From NCBI GenBank assembly GCA_030595925.1, contig JAUVLC010000010.1:1-38922 (forward strand): 38,922 nt of DNA. Direction: 5' to 3'. The DNA comes from Clostridia bacterium (GTDB taxonomy: Bacteria; CBDUZB01; JAGLHV01). Position numbers and translations under genes: made by a program. This document shows positions 9,924-17,961 of this stretch, in pieces (the stretch's first letter is position 1; each line of letters begins with the position of its first letter). The notes beneath the pieces were generated by a model. It was not told where the DNA came from. It was given only the letters and a program-made list of their open reading frames with translations, and searched no databases.

Positions 9924-10274
9924 CTAAATTATCTCTATATTGTCACCCTGTTGGGTTTTAGTTTCAAAAATTTTTCCGGTAGGGAGTTCAATTACTCCAT
10001 AAGCCTTCCAAATCCATGGACTTATTCTATAGGGCCGCAAATTTGAAATAATTTTTATAACTTTCCGTTCTTTATCAAAAAAAATTACATCAATTGAAAA
10101 ACGCATAAAAAAGGTATGAATGGACGAGGTCTTCAAAATTATCAGTCCCTCTTTTTCATTTAAAAACTTCCTCCCCATTAAACCAATCAATCGCGAAACA
10201 AAAGTATTTGCTTCCTTTGCTTTTTCTGCCAAAAGGCAATTTCGAGTACGATTAAAAACTCTTTTTACGATCAT
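9924..10274 (-). CDS. DUF192 family protein
   Basis: 116 aa. Family motifs are visible in order: RLIGLMGRKFLNEKEGLII, then IHTFFMRFSIDVIFFD, then VIELPTGKI and QGDNIEI at the end. DUF192 is a small beta fold of unknown biochemical role. Most members are exported or lipoprotein-anchored; this one has no signal peptide. Its start overlaps the stop of tadC by 4 bases, giving translational coupling. DUF192 genes are found at the ends of some Tad loci, so a link to pilus assembly is plausible but unproven. Confidence 0.9.
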   Translation of the reverse strand: MIVKRVFNRTRNCLLAEKAKEANTFVSRLIGLMGRKFLNEKEGLIILKTSSIHTFFMRFSIDVIFFDKERKVIKIISNLRPYRISPWIWKAYGVIELPTGKIFETKTQQGDNIEII

Positions 10275-11179
10275 ATATCTCCCGTAAAATATTTTATAAT
10301 CAAAGGAACCAGAATTATTACAAAAGTCATTGGAAAAATAAAAATTATCATAGGGAATATCATTTTAGTCCCGATTTGTGCTGCTCTTTTCTCTGCCATT
10401 TGCAAACGTTTTATTCTTATTTCTGCCGCATAATCACGCATAATAACTACAAGGTCTGTCCCTAATTCTTCTGTTTGAAGAAGTACAGAAATAAAAGCAC
10501 TAATTTCCGCAATATCCACTCTTTTAGCAAGATTTTTTAAAGCATCTCTTCTATTTAGACCCAGTTTTATTTCGCCCAACATTAAATTTATTTCTTCAAC
10601 AAGAGGATCCTTTTCTCCCCATTTTTGTTTAGTGATTATTTTTTCAAAAGCCGACATAAAATCCAACCCTGCCTCTACGCACAAGGTCAAAAGATCTACT
10701 ACCCCGGGCAAGGAAATACGAATTGCATCTGCTCTATCTTTTATTCTTTTTGTAATGTAATAATCAGGGATAAAAAAACTTAATACAACTATACATACCA
10801 AAATCAACGGATTGGTTATAATCCCCTGCATATATAAAAATACTGATAGAGCAAGCCCTCCAATCACTGCAACTTCTTTGAAGATTAAAATATCTCCGGG
10901 ACGAAGATGCGATTGCTTTCCCAATTTGGATAATTGTTGTTCTATTTTTGTTTTTATTTTTCCCTGTGCAAAAAATTTTCTATTGAATTTTTTCAAAATT
11001 CGTTTAACCAAATCAATCAAATTTTTCTTTTTTTCTTCTACAGGCTCTTCTTCCAAGGCATACAAGTCTGCAACTATATAATCGTCCAACTCATTCTTTT
11101 TTTCTTTCATTAAATATAAAAAATAAACTATTTGAAAAATTGCAACAAACCATAAAATCATACCTATTATTATTGACAT
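10271..11179 (-). CDS. tadC: Tad pilus inner-membrane platform protein TadC
   Basis: 302 aa. One N-terminal membrane helix (residues 3-22) and a pair near 95-130 precede the GspF/T2SSF domain (VDLLTLCVEAGLDFMSAFEKI...LGLNRRDALKNLAKRV...LGTDLVVIMRDYA). The protein ends in a long helix (MIFPMIIFIFPMTFVIILVPLII). TadB and TadC form the inner-membrane platform on which the CpaF ATPase acts to extrude Flp pilin. TadC typically has this extra helix pair before a single GspF domain. The gene follows tadB with a 90-base gap and overlaps the DUF192 gene. Confidence 0.93.
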   Translation of the reverse strand: MSIIIGMILWFVAIFQIVYFLYLMKEKKNELDDYIVADLYALEEEPVEEKKKNLIDLVKRILKKFNRKFFAQGKIKTKIEQQLSKLGKQSHLRPGDILIFKEVAVIGGLALSVFLYMQGIITNPLILVCIVVLSFFIPDYYITKRIKDRADAIRISLPGVVDLLTLCVEAGLDFMSAFEKIITKQKWGEKDPLVEEINLMLGEIKLGLNRRDALKNLAKRVDIAEISAFISVLLQTEELGTDLVVIMRDYAAEIRIKRLQMAEKRAAQIGTKMIFPMIIFIFPMTFVIILVPLIIKYFTGDI

Positions 11180-11269: not shown

Positions 11270-12133
11270 TTAAATCTTTACTTTTGCCATTTTAAAAACA
11301 ATAAAAATTCCTATCATCTGCCATCCCGTAGCTGCTATTAATATAATTATACCGACAGGATGATGAAATAAAGGAGTCATAAACCCAGGTTGTACTATAG
11401 ACAAAGCCGCAGCCAAACCCCATGGAAGAAAAAAAGATATTGTAGACTCTAATATTCCCTGTGCAGTCAAAACCTGAACCTTCCGTTTCAAAACATAATT
11501 ATCTCTGATAGAACGAACAACCTGATCCAGAATTTTAGTAATATCTCCCCCTGATTCCCGTTGAATAACCATCGCTGTAACAATAAATCTTACCAACTCA
11601 CTATCAATGCGAATAGATAAATTTTCTAAACTCATTTCCAGCGTAGAGCCAATACGCGTTTCTTGAAGGACTAATTTGAATTCATCACAAACAGGAGACG
11701 GCATATCACGAACAATCAATTGTATTCCCTGAGTTAAATCAAGCCCTGCTTTTAAAGAATTAGAAAGTAATATTAATGCTTCTACCAATTGTTCTTCGAA
11801 TTTCTTAATACGGCGCGCTTTAGCAAATTTAAATAATACCCGGGGCAATGCCAAACTCGCCAGTGCCGCCAAAACAGCTATCACCGCATTACCTGTCATA
11901 AAATAAACGAATATTCCAACAAGTAACATCCCTGACAAGACGTACAACCCAAATTGCGACTCTTTAACTTTGACAAATATACCACTAAGATCAACAGTCG
12001 TGCCCTTTACTATTTTTTTATAATACCCACTATAACGAAAAACCAATAAGGTTACCGACTGATAAAGAAACATTCCTGCTAACCATAAGCAAAAAGCTAT
12101 TAAAAACGTCGCTCCAAATTTTAATAAAACCAT
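11270..12133 (-). CDS. tadB: Tad pilus inner-membrane platform protein TadB
   Basis: 287 aa. Membrane helices lie at about residues 5-28 and 58-100, and two more near the C terminus (WGLAAALSIV, GIIILIAATGWQMIGIFIVF). The GspF domain between them includes LILLSNSLKAGLDLTQGIQLI and IQRESGGDITKILDQV, the signature of TadB. It partners TadC in the pilus platform. It lies 43 bases after the CpaE-CpaF fusion gene, in standard Tad order (ATPase, TadB, TadC). Confidence 0.94.
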   Translation of the reverse strand: MVLLKFGATFLIAFCLWLAGMFLYQSVTLLVFRYSGYYKKIVKGTTVDLSGIFVKVKESQFGLYVLSGMLLVGIFVYFMTGNAVIAVLAALASLALPRVLFKFAKARRIKKFEEQLVEALILLSNSLKAGLDLTQGIQLIVRDMPSPVCDEFKLVLQETRIGSTLEMSLENLSIRIDSELVRFIVTAMVIQRESGGDITKILDQVVRSIRDNYVLKRKVQVLTAQGILESTISFFLPWGLAAALSIVQPGFMTPLFHHPVGIIILIAATGWQMIGIFIVFKMAKVKI

Positions 12134-12176: not shown

Positions 12177-14354
12177 CTATCCACTTTTTTCAATATGAAA
12201 AACTCCTATCGGCAAATTAACTCCCTGAGTTTTAAATTCTGGATAACATTTAGGAATATTTCCTGTGGCCCGAAAAAAACCCGTTATTTTTTTATCTTCT
12301 ATACCTGTTCGCTGAAAAACAAAAATATCCTGTGCGGTAATAACATCTTTTTCCCTTCCTGTCACCTCGGTCACTTTAGTTATTTTCCTTGTCCCATCCG
12401 AAAAACGGGTTAATTGAATTACGAAATGTACAGCAGAAGCAATTTGTTCCCGAATTGCCCGTAAAGGCAACTCTGCCCCTGCCATAAGTATCATCGTTTC
12501 TAATCTACTCAGCATATCACGAGGAGAATTTGCATGTATGGTTGACAAAGAACCTTCATGTCCGGTATTCATTGCTTGCAACATATCCAATGCTTCAGGT
12601 CCCCGGCATTCACCTACCACAATACGATCCGGTCTCATACGCAAAGTATTTCTCACTAAATCACGTATAGTTACTTCCCCTTTCCCTTCAATATTAGGCG
12701 GTCGTGATTCTAACCGGCCCACATGTATCTGTTTTAGTTTTAACTCAGCAGTATCTTCTATCGTAATAATTCTCTCACCCTCAGGAATAGCTGCCGATAA
12801 AATATTCAACAAGGTAGTCTTTCCTGTTCCCGTTCCTCCCGAAATAAGTACATTCTTTTTTATCTTAACACATGCGGACAAAAACTGAAAAACTTCCCCA
12901 CTGATAGCACCCATCTTTATCAAATCCTCTCCGGTCAACGGATTTTTAGGAAAGCGCCTGATAGTAAGCATTGGCCCTTGTAATGCCAGGGGAGAAATAA
13001 TAGCATTTATTCTGGATCCATCTGCAAGCCGGGCATCCACAAATGGCATACTTTCATCTATTCTCCGGCCCAAAGGAGCAACTATTTTTCTAATTACCTG
13101 AACAACCTGATCATTACTAATAAATTTACGATCAGTGAGATACAGTTTACCATTTTGTTCAACATAAATTTGATCAAACTTATTTACCATAATTTCCGTA
13201 ATAGAAGACTCTTCCATTAAAGCCTCTAAGGGGCCTAACCCTAATGCTTCATCCACTATTTCCGCAATTAACTCTTCTCTCTCCTGTCTGGACATGGTAT
13301 CAACATCTATTTCCGTACTTAAAATAAGTGCAGCGGCTCTTTCAACAATCATCTTTACTTGTTGATTTTTAGCATCAGTAATAAAGTCTATTTTTCTTAC
13401 ATCCAATCGTTTAATTAATTGTTTATGAATCTTTTGTTTTAACTCATTACGGATTGCTTCTTCTTTTCCCTTTTTTATAATTTCCTCTTCTGACAATTTA
13501 TCAACAAAAAAATTCTTATTTTCTATTTTTCCTCTTTTCACAACGGTATCAAATCTATTCAATAACCCATCCAAAACACTTATTTTTTCTATCTTCCTGC
13601 CCCGTTGCGGAACATTAAGCATAATCCCTCTTATTCTTCTAATACTTTCCGAAAAACCGCTATGCGGTTCATTTACTATTAAAGGCTTTCTTTTATCTAT
13701 GGATCGCGAAACTAATTTATCTTGAGGAATAAGCTCCTCAATATTCTTTCCGAAACCCTGTAAAGAAGAATTGATTTCTCCACTTTTTATTGCTCCTTTT
13801 ATATCAAACTGATTTAAAACGAGACAAAATTTAGCAAAACTAAATTTATAAGAAGCAATTTTTTTAAACTTATCAATACTTTGTCTGAGAAAAATATTAG
13901 AGGGCATAAAAATCCAGAAAATTATATCCGCAAAATCAAACATTAATATTCCTTTTTGCGTAATATCACTCTCCATATCTATTACTAAAGAATAAACCTT
14001 ATTTAATCCGATTAAAACCCTCGCAATCTGGTTGAGAGAAATATCTACTGCTACTTTTTCATCAGGAGCTAAAGCTAAAACCCCTACTCCCCACTTATTA
14101 AAACTTATCCGGCCTCTTAAAAATTCTCCATCTAAAACATCTCTTTGCATTACTATAGACATTTTTGAAACATATGAAGCAGAAACATCTAACATTTGTG
14201 CTATTTCTCCCTTACAAAGAGGATCTAAATCAACAATAACCACTTGTTTTTTAGCCCTCATAGCCCAATCAATTGCTAAATTAACAGCTATTACCGTTTT
14301 TCCCATTCCTTTTTGCGGACCGGAAAAAACAATTATCCTATTACTATTTTCCAT
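12177..14354 (-). CDS. CpaE-CpaF fusion: MinD/ParA-like localiser joined to the Tad secretion ATPase
   Basis: 725 aa. Residues 1 to ~245 are a MinD/ParA-type ATPase as in CpaE/TadZ: deviant Walker A GPQKGMGKT at about 12-20, VVIVDLDPLCKG, then SLVIDMES and VLNQFD. A charged linker (~250-310) leads to a complete CpaF/TadA ATPase of the VirB11 family: GLGPLEALMEESSITEIMVN, RIDESMPFVDARLADGSR, Walker A GGTGTGKTT near 506-514, Walker B RPDRIVVGE and the His box GHEGSLSTIHANSP. CpaE normally places the machine in the cell as a separate protein, with its own receiver-like N-domain; that domain is missing here. Joining the two fixes them 1:1 and would place the localiser on each subunit of the CpaF hexamer. 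The ATG at 14354 is clean and no frameshift is needed. Confidence 0.93.
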   Translation of the reverse strand: MENSNRIIVFSGPQKGMGKTVIAVNLAIDWAMRAKKQVVIVDLDPLCKGEIAQMLDVSASYVSKMSIVMQRDVLDGEFLRGRISFNKWGVGVLALAPDEKVAVDISLNQIARVLIGLNKVYSLVIDMESDITQKGILMFDFADIIFWIFMPSNIFLRQSIDKFKKIASYKFSFAKFCLVLNQFDIKGAIKSGEINSSLQGFGKNIEELIPQDKLVSRSIDKRKPLIVNEPHSGFSESIRRIRGIMLNVPQRGRKIEKISVLDGLLNRFDTVVKRGKIENKNFFVDKLSEEEIIKKGKEEAIRNELKQKIHKQLIKRLDVRKIDFITDAKNQQVKMIVERAAALILSTEIDVDTMSRQEREELIAEIVDEALGLGPLEALMEESSITEIMVNKFDQIYVEQNGKLYLTDRKFISNDQVVQVIRKIVAPLGRRIDESMPFVDARLADGSRINAIISPLALQGPMLTIRRFPKNPLTGEDLIKMGAISGEVFQFLSACVKIKKNVLISGGTGTGKTTLLNILSAAIPEGERIITIEDTAELKLKQIHVGRLESRPPNIEGKGEVTIRDLVRNTLRMRPDRIVVGECRGPEALDMLQAMNTGHEGSLSTIHANSPRDMLSRLETMILMAGAELPLRAIREQIASAVHFVIQLTRFSDGTRKITKVTEVTGREKDVITAQDIFVFQRTGIEDKKITGFFRATGNIPKCYPEFKTQGVNLPIGVFHIEKSG

Positions 14355-14375: not shown

Positions 14376-15167
14376 TTATTTTACTAACTTAAAAGTTACG
14401 AACATAACTAATGATGTTTGTCTATTCATAGTATCCGCATACGTAAAAAAAGCATCCCCAATAAGGGGAATATATCCTAATAAAGGAACTCTCCTTTTGC
14501 TTATTATCTTTGAATCTTTTTTTAACCCGGCAATAACCAATGTTTGTTTGTTTTTTATCATTATTTTATTCCTCATTTCCCGTTTGGTAAAAGAAGGAAG
14601 GCGATACACTCCATAATTATACCAATCCCCTAATTCCACAACTCCCATCTTTAATTTAGCCGAAATGTTTATATTATCAACCACAACAGGTGCAACGTCT
14701 AAGGATACTCCGTACTCTTTCCATTTAATGACAATGTCATTATCATTAGTATAGACATAAGGAATCTCCCCCCCTACTAAAAAATGGGCTTCTGACCCAC
14801 TCTCAGTGACTAATTTAGGATTAGCTAAAAGTCGAGCTTCGTTATTATTAATTAGTGCATGGAGGGAACTCATAAAAGGAGTCGTTCTAAAAACTGTCCC
14901 TATTTTATAAACATCATAAGGCATTCCCCCAACAACATTATCTCCCAAAATGGAAGGAATACTCCCTTCTTCAAAACTAAAAGCATCCATCCACTCTATT
15001 CCTAATTTTTTAAGATTTGTCTCCGTTATTTCTATTGCATCAACACTTATCTCTACCATTCGTCTCGCCCCATAAACAAATGTTGCTTTTCCAAATAGTC
15101 CATATCCTTGCAGGAGAACAACCCCTAAAAAAATTTTCCCAACTATTATAATTATTTTCTTTTTCAC
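14376..15167 (-). CDS. Shortened Tad pilus secretin (CpaC/RcpA-like, C-domain only)
   Basis: 263 aa, against roughly 450-500 for usual CpaC. After a signal sequence (VGKIFLGVVLLQGYGLFG) it goes almost directly into the secretin pore domain: VEISVDAIEITETNLKKLGI, LLANPKLVTESGSEAHFLVGG, EIPYVYTND, KEYGVSLDVAPVV and the end RVPLLGYIPLIGDAFF. The usual N-terminal BON/N0-N1 domains that reach into the periplasm are absent. It starts with GTG at 15167, overlapping the cpaB stop by 4 bases (GTGA), with AAGGAGG just upstream. It is predicted to form the outer-membrane channel for the pilus. The missing N-domains may be replaced by another protein; the repeat-tail protein at 16588 is one candidate. 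Confidence 0.88.
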   Translation of the reverse strand: MKKKIIIIVGKIFLGVVLLQGYGLFGKATFVYGARRMVEISVDAIEITETNLKKLGIEWMDAFSFEEGSIPSILGDNVVGGMPYDVYKIGTVFRTTPFMSSLHALINNNEARLLANPKLVTESGSEAHFLVGGEIPYVYTNDNDIVIKWKEYGVSLDVAPVVVDNINISAKLKMGVVELGDWYNYGVYRLPSFTKREMRNKIMIKNKQTLVIAGLKKDSKIISKRRVPLLGYIPLIGDAFFTYADTMNRQTSLVMFVTFKLVK

Positions 15168-15943
15168 TTTTCCTCCTTTTCTGCACTTACCGTTTCTCTC
15201 TTTCCCTCCCCTCCAATATGTTTTTCATCGCTCACAACTTTAGGTGTTATAGGCGTTTTCTGTTTTTCATAAAGAGCAGGATATGAGGTTTTCTTTATAT
15301 TATTTATTTTGCCGTCATTGTAAGAACGCACGATATAAGTGATCTTTCCTTCCCCTGTAGCCAAAATAAACAACTGACATTGTTCCGGGGTTAAAGCAAA
15401 AGTCAGAAAATTTCCTTTTTCCCCTCCCGTACCAAAATCCGATCCTATACTTAAAATAATAACATTTTGTAATCGGGTAAAAACACAATTTCCCGGATAA
15501 TTAAGATCGGGCAAAGTAAGCAGAATATCCAAATGATCTCCCGGATTAATTAAAGATAATAAGTCTTTATCTCCTTTCGCTACAATTCCACGCATCCCCA
15601 TTGGAACTTTGACTGATAAGCCTGTATCCTTACTCAACGGAACTAAACTGGATTGTAAAACTTGCATCCCCCGGGAAATGGGAACTAAATTAACCAACCC
15701 TTCTGCTGCTTTCGGATCACGAATTGCCTTGGGCTGAATATATTTTTGCGGTATTTCCATAAACCCCAACATATTAGTTTTAATTACACTCCTTTTAGGA
15801 ATATTTCGCACTGCTACTACCACCCGGTTTTTGATCAATCCCCGTTCTAATGCTCTTTCCTTACTTGCTAAATACCATCCATTAAACATTATTGCCAATA
15901 TTCCCGCAATTCCCGCAATTATTAACCCTGCTTTTCCACCCAT
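15164..15943 (-). CDS. cpaB: Tad pilus assembly protein CpaB/RcpC
   Basis: 259 aa. An N-terminal membrane anchor (GLIIAGIAGILAIMFNGWYL) is followed by a SAF-like domain (VVVAVRNIPKRSVIKTNML, then GLVNLVPISRGMQVLQSSL) and the CpaB/RcpC region (VPMGMRGIVAKGD, LINPGDHLDILLT, LTPEQCQLFILATGEGKI). CpaB is a periplasmic partner of the secretin. The start at 15943 has a strong AAGGAGGGG site. A long perfect hairpin sits between this gene and the TadE gene upstream. Confidence 0.93.
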   Translation of the reverse strand: MGGKAGLIIAGIAGILAIMFNGWYLASKERALERGLIKNRVVVAVRNIPKRSVIKTNMLGFMEIPQKYIQPKAIRDPKAAEGLVNLVPISRGMQVLQSSLVPLSKDTGLSVKVPMGMRGIVAKGDKDLLSLINPGDHLDILLTLPDLNYPGNCVFTRLQNVIILSIGSDFGTGGEKGNFLTFALTPEQCQLFILATGEGKITYIVRSYNDGKINNIKKTSYPALYEKQKTPITPKVVSDEKHIGGEGKRETVSAEKEEK

Positions 15944-16107: not shown

Positions 16108-16497
16108 TTATATTTTTCTCATCATACAACAGCCATGAATTTTATAATCGTTTCCCTCCCCGGCAAAAAACGCTAATATTTCAGGAAGAAGATAACCATA
16201 AGAAATCATTACACTTACGCTCCCTCCTCCATTTTCATGGTCTAAATCTCCATCCCAATCTGACGGCATCACCCCTGCTGCCGCACTTTTTGCTGCACTT
16301 AGCGGATCCCCCACCCCTTTACTTTCTACTACTACAAAAGTCCGACAAAAATAATAAGCAGCATGATTAGCAACAATAATATTATTACAAACATCCCAAA
16401 TAATCAACATCAAAAACAAAGAATATATTAACAAGGGAGAAACTATCAAGAACTCAATCATAGTCTGACCTTTTCTTTCTCTCATTTTTCTCCGCAT
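16108..16497 (-). CDS. TadE-like pseudopilin
   Basis: 129 aa. A short basic lead (MRRKMRERK) is followed by GQTMIEFLIVSPLLIYSLFLMLII, where the prepilin-type cut would fall after Gly with Glu at +5 of the mature form, then a ~95-residue domain. TadE/TadF pseudopilins are minor subunits processed by the TadV peptidase and needed for Flp pilus assembly. Only one such gene is present here; no TadF or TadG was seen. It sits between the repeat-tail protein and the long hairpin. Confidence 0.85.
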   Translation of the reverse strand: MRRKMRERKGQTMIEFLIVSPLLIYSLFLMLIIWDVCNNIIVANHAAYYFCRTFVVVESKGVGDPLSAAKSAAAGVMPSDWDGDLDHENGGGSVSVMISYGYLLPEILAFFAGEGNDYKIHGCCMMRKI

Positions 16498-16587: not shown

Positions 16588-16938
16588 CTACCTGGGGATA
16601 TTTACTTTCGGAACCCGGGGTTTCTTTATTTTAGGAATATCTACTTTCGGAATTTTTGGCTTCTTTATTCCTGAAACATCCACTTTTTCCACAGGCACAA
16701 TATCTATCCGAGGAACTTCCGGCTTTTCTATTTTAGGAATATTCACTTTAGAAACATCTACGGAAAAAGTGAACATTTCATTTAATTTTTCTATCCCGGA
16801 AACCACAAATTTTTTACCTTCCCCATCTATTATTCTCCCCATACCCGTATGCATAAATACTTCTCGTATTAAGAGAACAACAATCAGAATCAAAAAAATC
16901 CTTTTTACATTTAAACTAATTTTTCCTTTCTTAGCCAC
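16588..16938 (-). CDS. Single-pass membrane protein with a Pro/Lys/Val repeat tail
   Basis: 116 aa. A basic start (MAKKGKISLNVKR) and one membrane helix (IFLILIVVLLI) leave ~90 residues outside. From residue ~63 the tail repeats a pattern like IPK-hydrophobic-x-KP-x-hydrophobic-P-K/R-hydrophobic-D/N (for example KIEKPEVPRIDI, KIKKPRVPKVNI). Pro-Lys repeats of this kind form stiff extended rods, as in the TonB periplasmic spacer, but no TonB C-domain follows. The stop at 16588-16590 looks recent: one extra A would give the next unit (VDIPKTR) and a stop six residues later. Between the pilins and TadE, it is probably a pilus accessory protein; I know no named family. Confidence 0.75.
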   Translation of the reverse strand: MAKKGKISLNVKRIFLILIVVLLIREVFMHTGMGRIIDGEGKKFVVSGIEKLNEMFTFSVDVSKVNIPKIEKPEVPRIDIVPVEKVDVSGIKKPKIPKVDIPKIKKPRVPKVNIPR

Positions 16939-17206: not shown

Positions 17207-17383
17207 TTATCCACCAAAACTGGCAATACTATTAGCAATACCATCGTACCCGGTCATAATACCAGATCTCATAATGTTAATAATAACCACTGCCGCCGCT
17301 GCCATTACTCCCAAAATTATAGCATATTCTATCGCTGACTGCCCTTTCTTTTTCTTTAAGATGTTCTTCAATGTTATAAACAT
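17207..17383 (-). CDS. Flp-type pilin 5
   Basis: 58 aa from the ATG at 17383. Leader MFITLKNILKKKKG, then QSAIEYAIILGVMAAAAVVI with Glu5-Tyr6, and a short tail ending ANSIASFGG. The frame is open upstream to 17428, but an AGGAGG site sits 9 bases before 17383 and overlaps the alternative ATG four codons earlier, so 17383 is preferred. Its Ala-rich helix and IEYAI start are closest to the classic Flp1 pilin, making it a good candidate for the major subunit. Confidence 0.92.
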   Translation of the reverse strand: MFITLKNILKKKKGQSAIEYAIILGVMAAAAVVIINIMRSGIMTGYDGIANSIASFGG

Positions 17384-17476
17384 TTTTTCCATCCTCCTTT
17401 CTTTTATTCCATATTTAGTTTCCAACAAAACACCATAGATTCACTACATTTTATCCTTTTCGCTCTACATCGATAA

Positions 17477-17674: not shown

Positions 17675-17857
17675 TTATTCTGGTTCTTTAATAGTATAAT
17701 ATGAACCTTCACCCGTAGCAACACCCGCTGGATCCGCCTTCGTTACAATAAAGCCTTTTATCGTAGTTGCTACCGCTGTTATGGCTCCGGCTATTACAGC
17801 AACTACTAAAAGATACTCGATTACATTTTGCCCCTTACTTTTTTTATTTTTAAACAA
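17675..17857 (-). CDS. Flp-type pilin 3 (TTG start)
   Basis: 60 aa. GAGGAGGTG stands 6-8 bases before a TTG at 17857, which I take as the start although the frame stays open upstream to 17911. Leader MFKNKKSKG, then QNVIEYLLVVAVIAGAITAV with Glu5-Tyr6. The tail (KADPAGVATGEGSYYTIKEP) differs from all other copies. It shares the QN-x-IEYLL opening with pilin 4, so the two are probably paralogues. Confidence 0.88.
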   Translation of the reverse strand: MFKNKKSKGQNVIEYLLVVAVIAGAITAVATTIKGFIVTKADPAGVATGEGSYYTIKEPE

Positions 17858-17961
17858 TTTAAACACCTCCTCTTTATTATTAAAACAAATCCCTTCCCAA
17901 TTTTCAAGCATCCCCCCCCTTTCTTTAAAAATTTACTTTTTTATTTAATTCTTTTATTTTA

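Follow-up and report, generated by a model that had tools for sequence, protein, structure and literature searches.

A CpaE domain built into the CpaF motor of a Tad pilus system, and the occurrence of this architecture in several bacterial phyla

The role of CpaE in the Tad pilus machine has been inferred from a 2026 Caulobacter model, in which six CpaE dimers were fitted into tomograms around the CpaF hexamer and the contacts between dimers were attributed to their receiver domains (PMC13170226). The window analysed here, a stretch of 38,922 nucleotides from a Clostridia bacterium, poses the question of that role in another form, as CpaE and CpaF had been described by a first-pass annotation as parts of a single 725-residue protein. 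Is this fusion real, how widely does it occur, and what could a CpaE domain do that never leaves its motor? The coordinates given in that annotation proved right, and the strand, which had been left out, is the minus strand. The gene and its parts are:

12177-14354, minus strand: cpaE-cpaF fusion gene, 725 aa (open frame, Pfam, NCBIfam, predicted structure, 79% identical orthologue)
13614-14345, minus strand: CpaE ATPase domain, residues 4-247, MinD/ParA fold, receiver domain absent (CbiA, standalone-CpaE HMM, AlphaFold2, PDB fold match 3ea0)
14295-14315, minus strand: P-loop of the CpaE domain, residues 14-20, QKGMGKT, with Q14 at the signature-lysine position (alignments)
13491-13613, minus strand: linker, approximately residues 248-288 (AlphaFold2 model, dN/dS)
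13518-13583, minus strand: candidate amphipathic membrane-contact helix, residues 258-279, LDGLLNRFDTVVKR, moment 0.67 (prediction, low model confidence)
12195-13490, minus strand: three-helix bundle and CpaF/TadA motor, residues 289-720 (T2SSE, TIGR03819, PDB CpaF 8rkd/9e24)
12813-12839, minus strand: intact motor Walker A, GGTGTGKTT, residues 506-514 (sequence)

The frame runs without interruption through 725 codons from an ATG, and the plus strand of the same interval is filled with stops. Pfam matches to CbiA (MinD/ParA; residues 9-224) and T2SSE (371-657) fall on the two parts of the protein, and the NCBIfam TadA family matches residues 350-662. The TIGR03819 score, 324.9, lies below the curated cut-off of 373; nonetheless, the nearest PDB entries to the C-terminal part by sequence are the Caulobacter CpaF structures 8rkd/9e24 (E about 1e-115), and the motor also matches Caulobacter CpaF structures in Foldseek (E 1e-41). 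This part displays the features of the CpaF/TadA family, namely a T2SSE/TadA-family ATPase, an intact Walker A and a three-helix bundle, which the AlphaFold2 monomer places at residues 289-347 ahead of the motor. The structure predicted from 24 fused homologues bears out the annotation's two-domain reading, with two domains that fold as separate units and a connecting linker that includes a low-confidence, disordered stretch (275-292). Modelled alone, the N-terminal domain reached a pTM of 0.84, and its best PDB fold match was the ParA-family ATPase 3ea0 (TMt 0.85); MinD, FlhG and FleN were likewise among the closest, and E. rectale TadZ (3fkq) was also among the fold matches. From the domain matches and predicted structures we therefore conclude that the fusion is real and that both domains are complete folds, and the 725-residue protein is almost certainly a genuine Tad motor composed of a CpaE domain and CpaF. 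Such a fusion imposes equal amounts of its two parts (1:1 stoichiometry), as the annotation had rightly claimed.

A sequencing or assembly error joining two truly separate genes, which the annotation had named as a possible refutation, has a negligible chance of being the explanation: the window comes from a 193-contig draft and adjoining separate cpaE-cpaF genes are frequent in other phyla, but an independently assembled congener (G001, L020:8274-10466) has a fusion gene whose product is 79% identical to this one, a fused paralogue of about 41-44% identity is present at a second locus in all three genomes of the genus, and fused ORFs elsewhere number in the hundreds. Within the orthologue pair, dN/dS was 0.20 for the CpaE part, a sign of purifying selection on that domain, 0.61 for the linker and 0.12 for the motor, the linker thus being fast-evolving relative to both flanking domains.

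The fusion gene lies between the secretin gene and tadB, and the Tad genes around it are on the same strand:

10271-11179, minus strand: tadC, T2SSF platform protein (Pfam T2SSF)
11270-12133, minus strand: tadB, T2SSF platform protein (Pfam T2SSF)
14376-15167, minus strand: short secretin, 263 aa (Pfam Secretin; GspD/PilQ C-terminal models only)
15164-15943, minus strand: cpaB/rcpC (TIGR03177 above cut-off)
16108-16497, minus strand: TadE/F-like minor pilin with a hydrophobic GQTMIEFLIV start (assigned by eye; no Pfam or family match)
17207-17428, minus strand: Flp pilin (weak Flp_Fap match, class III signal)
17675-17911, minus strand: second Flp-like pilin (weak Flp_Fap match)

Together with the one prepilin peptidase (peptidase A24) encoded elsewhere in the genome, the parts of a Tad or type IVc system are all present: Flp pilins, CpaB, secretin, motor, TadB and TadC in the locus, and the peptidase in the genome. 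No standalone CpaE was found in the genome, and a hidden copy was discounted when the two other strong MinD-like matches turned out to be Soj/ParA. The operon also holds a small protein (16588-16938, minus strand) with a repeated proline-rich IPKIEKPEVP pattern and no family match, and the congener encodes a similar protein at the corresponding position (L020:5658-6062). A DUF192-type protein (PRK03760; 9924-10274, minus strand) sits between tadC and a TPR protein, with an equivalent in the congener at L020:12360-12710. Secretins in the fused loci of Elusimicrobiota are equally short (240-276 aa), like that reported for KilC. The short secretin was rejected as a companion of the fusion because the fused loci of Omnitrophota have full-length secretins of 536-577 aa.

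Which part of CpaE has been kept was determined with an HMM of 400 positions built from standalone CpaE proteins with a receiver domain, two of which (L036 and L038) were checked and carry Pfam Response_reg. Positions 139-397 of this model align to fusion residues 4-265 (E 4.7e-36), and the paralogue matches it at E 1.8e-30. By HMM and fold, the N-terminal domain is a MinD/ParA-type ATPase of the CpaE branch, homologous to the ATPase domains of CpaE/TadZ proteins such as E. rectale TadZ (PDB 3fkq) and Caulobacter CpaE. As the alignment begins only at position 139, and positions 1-138 have no counterpart in the fusion protein, the receiver half is exactly what is absent; Pfam TadZ_N found no match in any of the three genus genomes (0/3), in agreement with the annotation, which had noted the missing receiver-like domain. 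The same domain is absent from all fusions examined, and nearly all are truncated just ahead of the ATPase domain, as judged by the HMM.

The annotation had also implied that the fusion is rare, and here a database search for the domain order gave the opposite answer. Because matches in several phyla join two adjoining genes, each of the 80 loci returned by a GTDB genome scan was examined for a single ORF, and only single-ORF cases were counted as fusions; tblastn ranges of 2-719 were rejected as sufficient proof, since they span two adjoining genes in Chloroflexota, Bacillota and Actinomycetota. Single-ORF fusions were found in Elusimicrobiota, Omnitrophota, Bdellovibrionota, WOR-3 and Eremiobacterota (GTDB), and the idea of a unique fusion was dropped. 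Whole-genome searches, with phylum counts taken from our own reading of the tables and alignments that begin no later than about residue ten, placed the fusion in about 75 of the 120 Elusimicrobiota genomes in which a motor was matched, in about 70 of 98 Omnitrophota genomes and in most of 191 Bdellovibrionota genomes. In further Elusimicrobiota and Bdellovibrionota motors only the motor half aligns, yet the frames are 640-770 codons long; of these motors, together with borderline cases, 18 were examined, and CpaE models still match the majority, while the N-domains of some Elusimicrobiota motors can hardly be recognised. Entire phyla, the predatory Bdellovibrionota among them, thus have the CpaE-CpaF fusion as their usual Tad motor. 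In four Elusimicrobiota loci (L103-L106) the N-terminal 300 residues are faintly CpaE-like, representing either advanced erosion or a different domain. In two Omnitrophota genomes (G193 and G328) another motor is accompanied by CpaF-like copies interrupted by several internal stops; these copies seem to be pseudogenes.

In Bdellovibrionota motors a single ORF of about 740 aa likewise encodes CpaE followed by CpaF; they differ in the fully canonical P-loop of their CpaE domain, GKGGVGKS, and the papers found name the protein just TadA. The TadA known as Bd0111 was picked up in the attack phase by mass spectrometry (PMC5430801). In a Bdellovibrio-like genome, a published bd0111 primer (PMC3818213) matches within the fused ORF with one mismatch, the reverse primer as printed matching poorly there; judging from that genome, Bd0111 of HD100 is probably a fusion.

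We found no published CpaE-CpaF or TadZ-TadA fusion in the open-access literature. The motor part resembles Caulobacter crescentus CpaF/TadA (PDB 8rjf, 8rkd and 9e24) from the three-helix bundle through the C-terminal ATPase, with Walker A intact. A 2025 survey of 292 CpaF orthologues distinguished bare proteins (class I), proteins with a disordered N-terminus (class II) and proteins with an FHA domain and a disordered region (class III; PMC12019362). The fused architecture, though widespread, is outside this three-class scheme, its N-terminus being a folded CpaE domain. Class III motors of betaproteobacteria and KilF of Myxococcus nevertheless offer an instructive comparison: these FHA-CpaF motors have an extra N-terminal module in the same operon slot, have no standalone CpaE nearby and fall on the same side of the CpaF tree as the fusions, but FHA is a phosphopeptide-binding domain unrelated to CpaE. 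Predatory Tad systems of the Kil type combine an FHA-domain motor with a short secretin (PMC8460266); the window's secretin is short too (263 aa), but its motor carries CpaE and not FHA, and the match fails.

Gene order, where detectable, was cpaB-secretin-[module-CpaF]-tadB-tadC, the module being a separate CpaE, a fused CpaE or FHA. A full standalone CpaE was absent from the fetched flanks of all fused (24/24) and all FHA-CpaF (20/20) loci and present in those of nearly all separate-type loci. Separate CpaE, fused CpaE and FHA therefore share one slot and are mutually exclusive. One side of the CpaF tree comprises the separate type and the Eremiobacterota fusion (support 96/88), and the other side comprises every remaining fused type and every FHA type. 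The Eremiobacterota locus (L090), on the same side as the separate genes, seems to be a CpaE-CpaF fusion of independent origin. Whether fusion occurred several times, as opposed to a single origin on the N-terminally extended side of the tree, is a close call that we would place slightly on the doubtful side. On the careful tree the fused rows take 4 changes to explain, the fusion from Eremiobacterota is nested among separate genes, and co-directional neighbouring cpaE and cpaF genes make fusing easy; nearly all fusions, however, are cut at the same point ahead of the ATPase domain, and a single clade of the 28 non-Eremiobacterota fused rows, with an AU p of 0.296, is not rejected. Such a clade would be compatible with the tree and is not established by it.

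How the fused CpaE might work depends largely on its nucleotide-binding site. The first-pass annotation had reported a deviant Walker A, KGMGKT. Its GxGKT is indeed present, but in the context PQKGMGKT the signature-lysine column of the deviant motif (KGGxGKT) is occupied by Q14, and the lysine, K15, comes one position later; the motif is therefore not a textbook deviant Walker A, and many true CpaEs depart from KGGxGK[ST] too. Since this near-normal P-loop is accompanied by the A' site Asp (DLDP) and conserved catalytic-site aspartates, the window copy may still bind ATP. Compared with CpaE/TadZ proteins, the fusion differs in having no receiver, in not being a separate protein and in its displaced lysine, and the genus paralogue in having no P-loop at all. 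The paralogue, the second Tad motor of the genus, with a P-loop-less CpaE domain, was located at:

L019:2045-4207, minus strand
L021:1-2031
L022:166-2358, minus strand

The G000 and G002 sequences show the P-loop loss in this paralogue directly; the G001 copy is uninformative on this point, as a contig end removes its N-terminus. In G002, a genome 94% complete, the P-loop-less motor is the only type present; there it adjoins rodA/mrdA-like cell-shape genes. Among the fusions aligned, Bdellovibrionota have KGGVGKS, most Omnitrophota KGGVGKT, some other Omnitrophota GRT, GST or GNT, and the main Elusimicrobiota type KEGVGKT, and in several Elusimicrobiota fusions, as in the genus paralogue, the P-loop is unrecognisable. 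Weakening of the motif is not specific to fusion, because the sampled standalone CpaEs sometimes lose the lysine as well (KGGxG[ACTV]T), with the glycine skeleton kept. Loss of the whole motif was seen only among fusions, several of which had been chosen since their N-part failed to align; as the sampling is biased and the sequences are related, the contrast between fused and standalone proteins is suggestive only. Judging from these motifs, MinD-type ATP-driven switching cannot be a general requirement of fused CpaE, since the CpaE P-loop is missing from the sister paralogue and from many of the fusions in Elusimicrobiota.

We consider it fairly probable that the fused protein acts as a Tad (type IVc) extension/retraction motor that carries its own CpaE domain as a fixed collar and for which ATP switching by that domain is dispensable; for the collar mechanism with its dispensable switch, taken separately, the balance tilts only gently in favour. 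By homology the motor would be a hexamer, which would place six CpaE domains, flexibly tethered, on its N-terminal rim, where they would probably form either three dimers or a six-membered ring, compared with the twelve CpaE molecules modelled per hexamer in Caulobacter. Covalent attachment would take over the recruitment that free CpaE achieves through ATP-dependent dimerisation and receiver-receiver contacts. With recruitment supplied by the tether, both could be lost, leaving CpaE as a fixed collar that would hold the motor against the membrane and the platform instead of a MinD-like switch. This would explain why the receiver is absent in all fusions examined and why the ATP site decays with the domain kept. 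A link through the fusion between membrane placement and pilus extrusion, as the annotation had proposed, is plausible. Within the linker, the amphipathic helix at residues 258-279 is, with low confidence, a candidate for membrane contact; no amphipathic helix conserved at one fixed linker position was found among the fusions. The archaellum offers an analogy only: FlaH is likewise an ATP-binding regulator seated on a secretion-type ATPase hexamer, FlaI (PMC4858521), but it is KaiC-like, separate and not covalently joined, unlike fused CpaE.

The fused domain could instead remain an active MinD-type switch, dimerising and hydrolysing in response to ATP, cycling on and off the membrane and gating the attached motor. 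The GxGKT and A' site Asp of the window copy and the full KGGVGK[ST] of Bdellovibrionota and most Omnitrophota fusions speak for such activity, but we regard it as unlikely, given the lysine displaced by Q14 in the window copy, the complete absence of the P-loop from the paralogue and many Elusimicrobiota fusions, and the genus member that has the P-loop-less form only. That the CpaE part is a functionless relic, a passenger of the motor, is more improbable still; heavy erosion in small-genome Elusimicrobiota and the looser constraint on CpaE than on the motor (0.20 vs 0.12) would fit it, but the domain is kept full-length in several phyla and is under purifying selection even where the P-loop is gone (dN/dS 0.19-0.29 in the paralogue).

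Returning to the collar, we see as evenly balanced the broader proposal of a fourth, widespread type of CpaF architecture, in which CpaE would be a permanent domain of the subunit (six per hexamer, not twelve), CpaE and FHA would be alternative modules exchanged at one slot, and a tethered CpaE could lose its ATP site and stay as a structural collar. The natural fusion sets the ratio of CpaE to CpaF at 1:1 and indicates that CpaE can do without its receiver domain and, in some lineages, without its ATP site. It also provides a covalently tethered complex suited to cryo-EM. Bdellovibrionota typically have the fused form and require their Tad pilins for predation, so that the fusion is open to genetic tests in a laboratory predator. 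Finally, annotation and classification of Tad motors by the presence of separate tadZ and tadA genes overlooks whole phyla.
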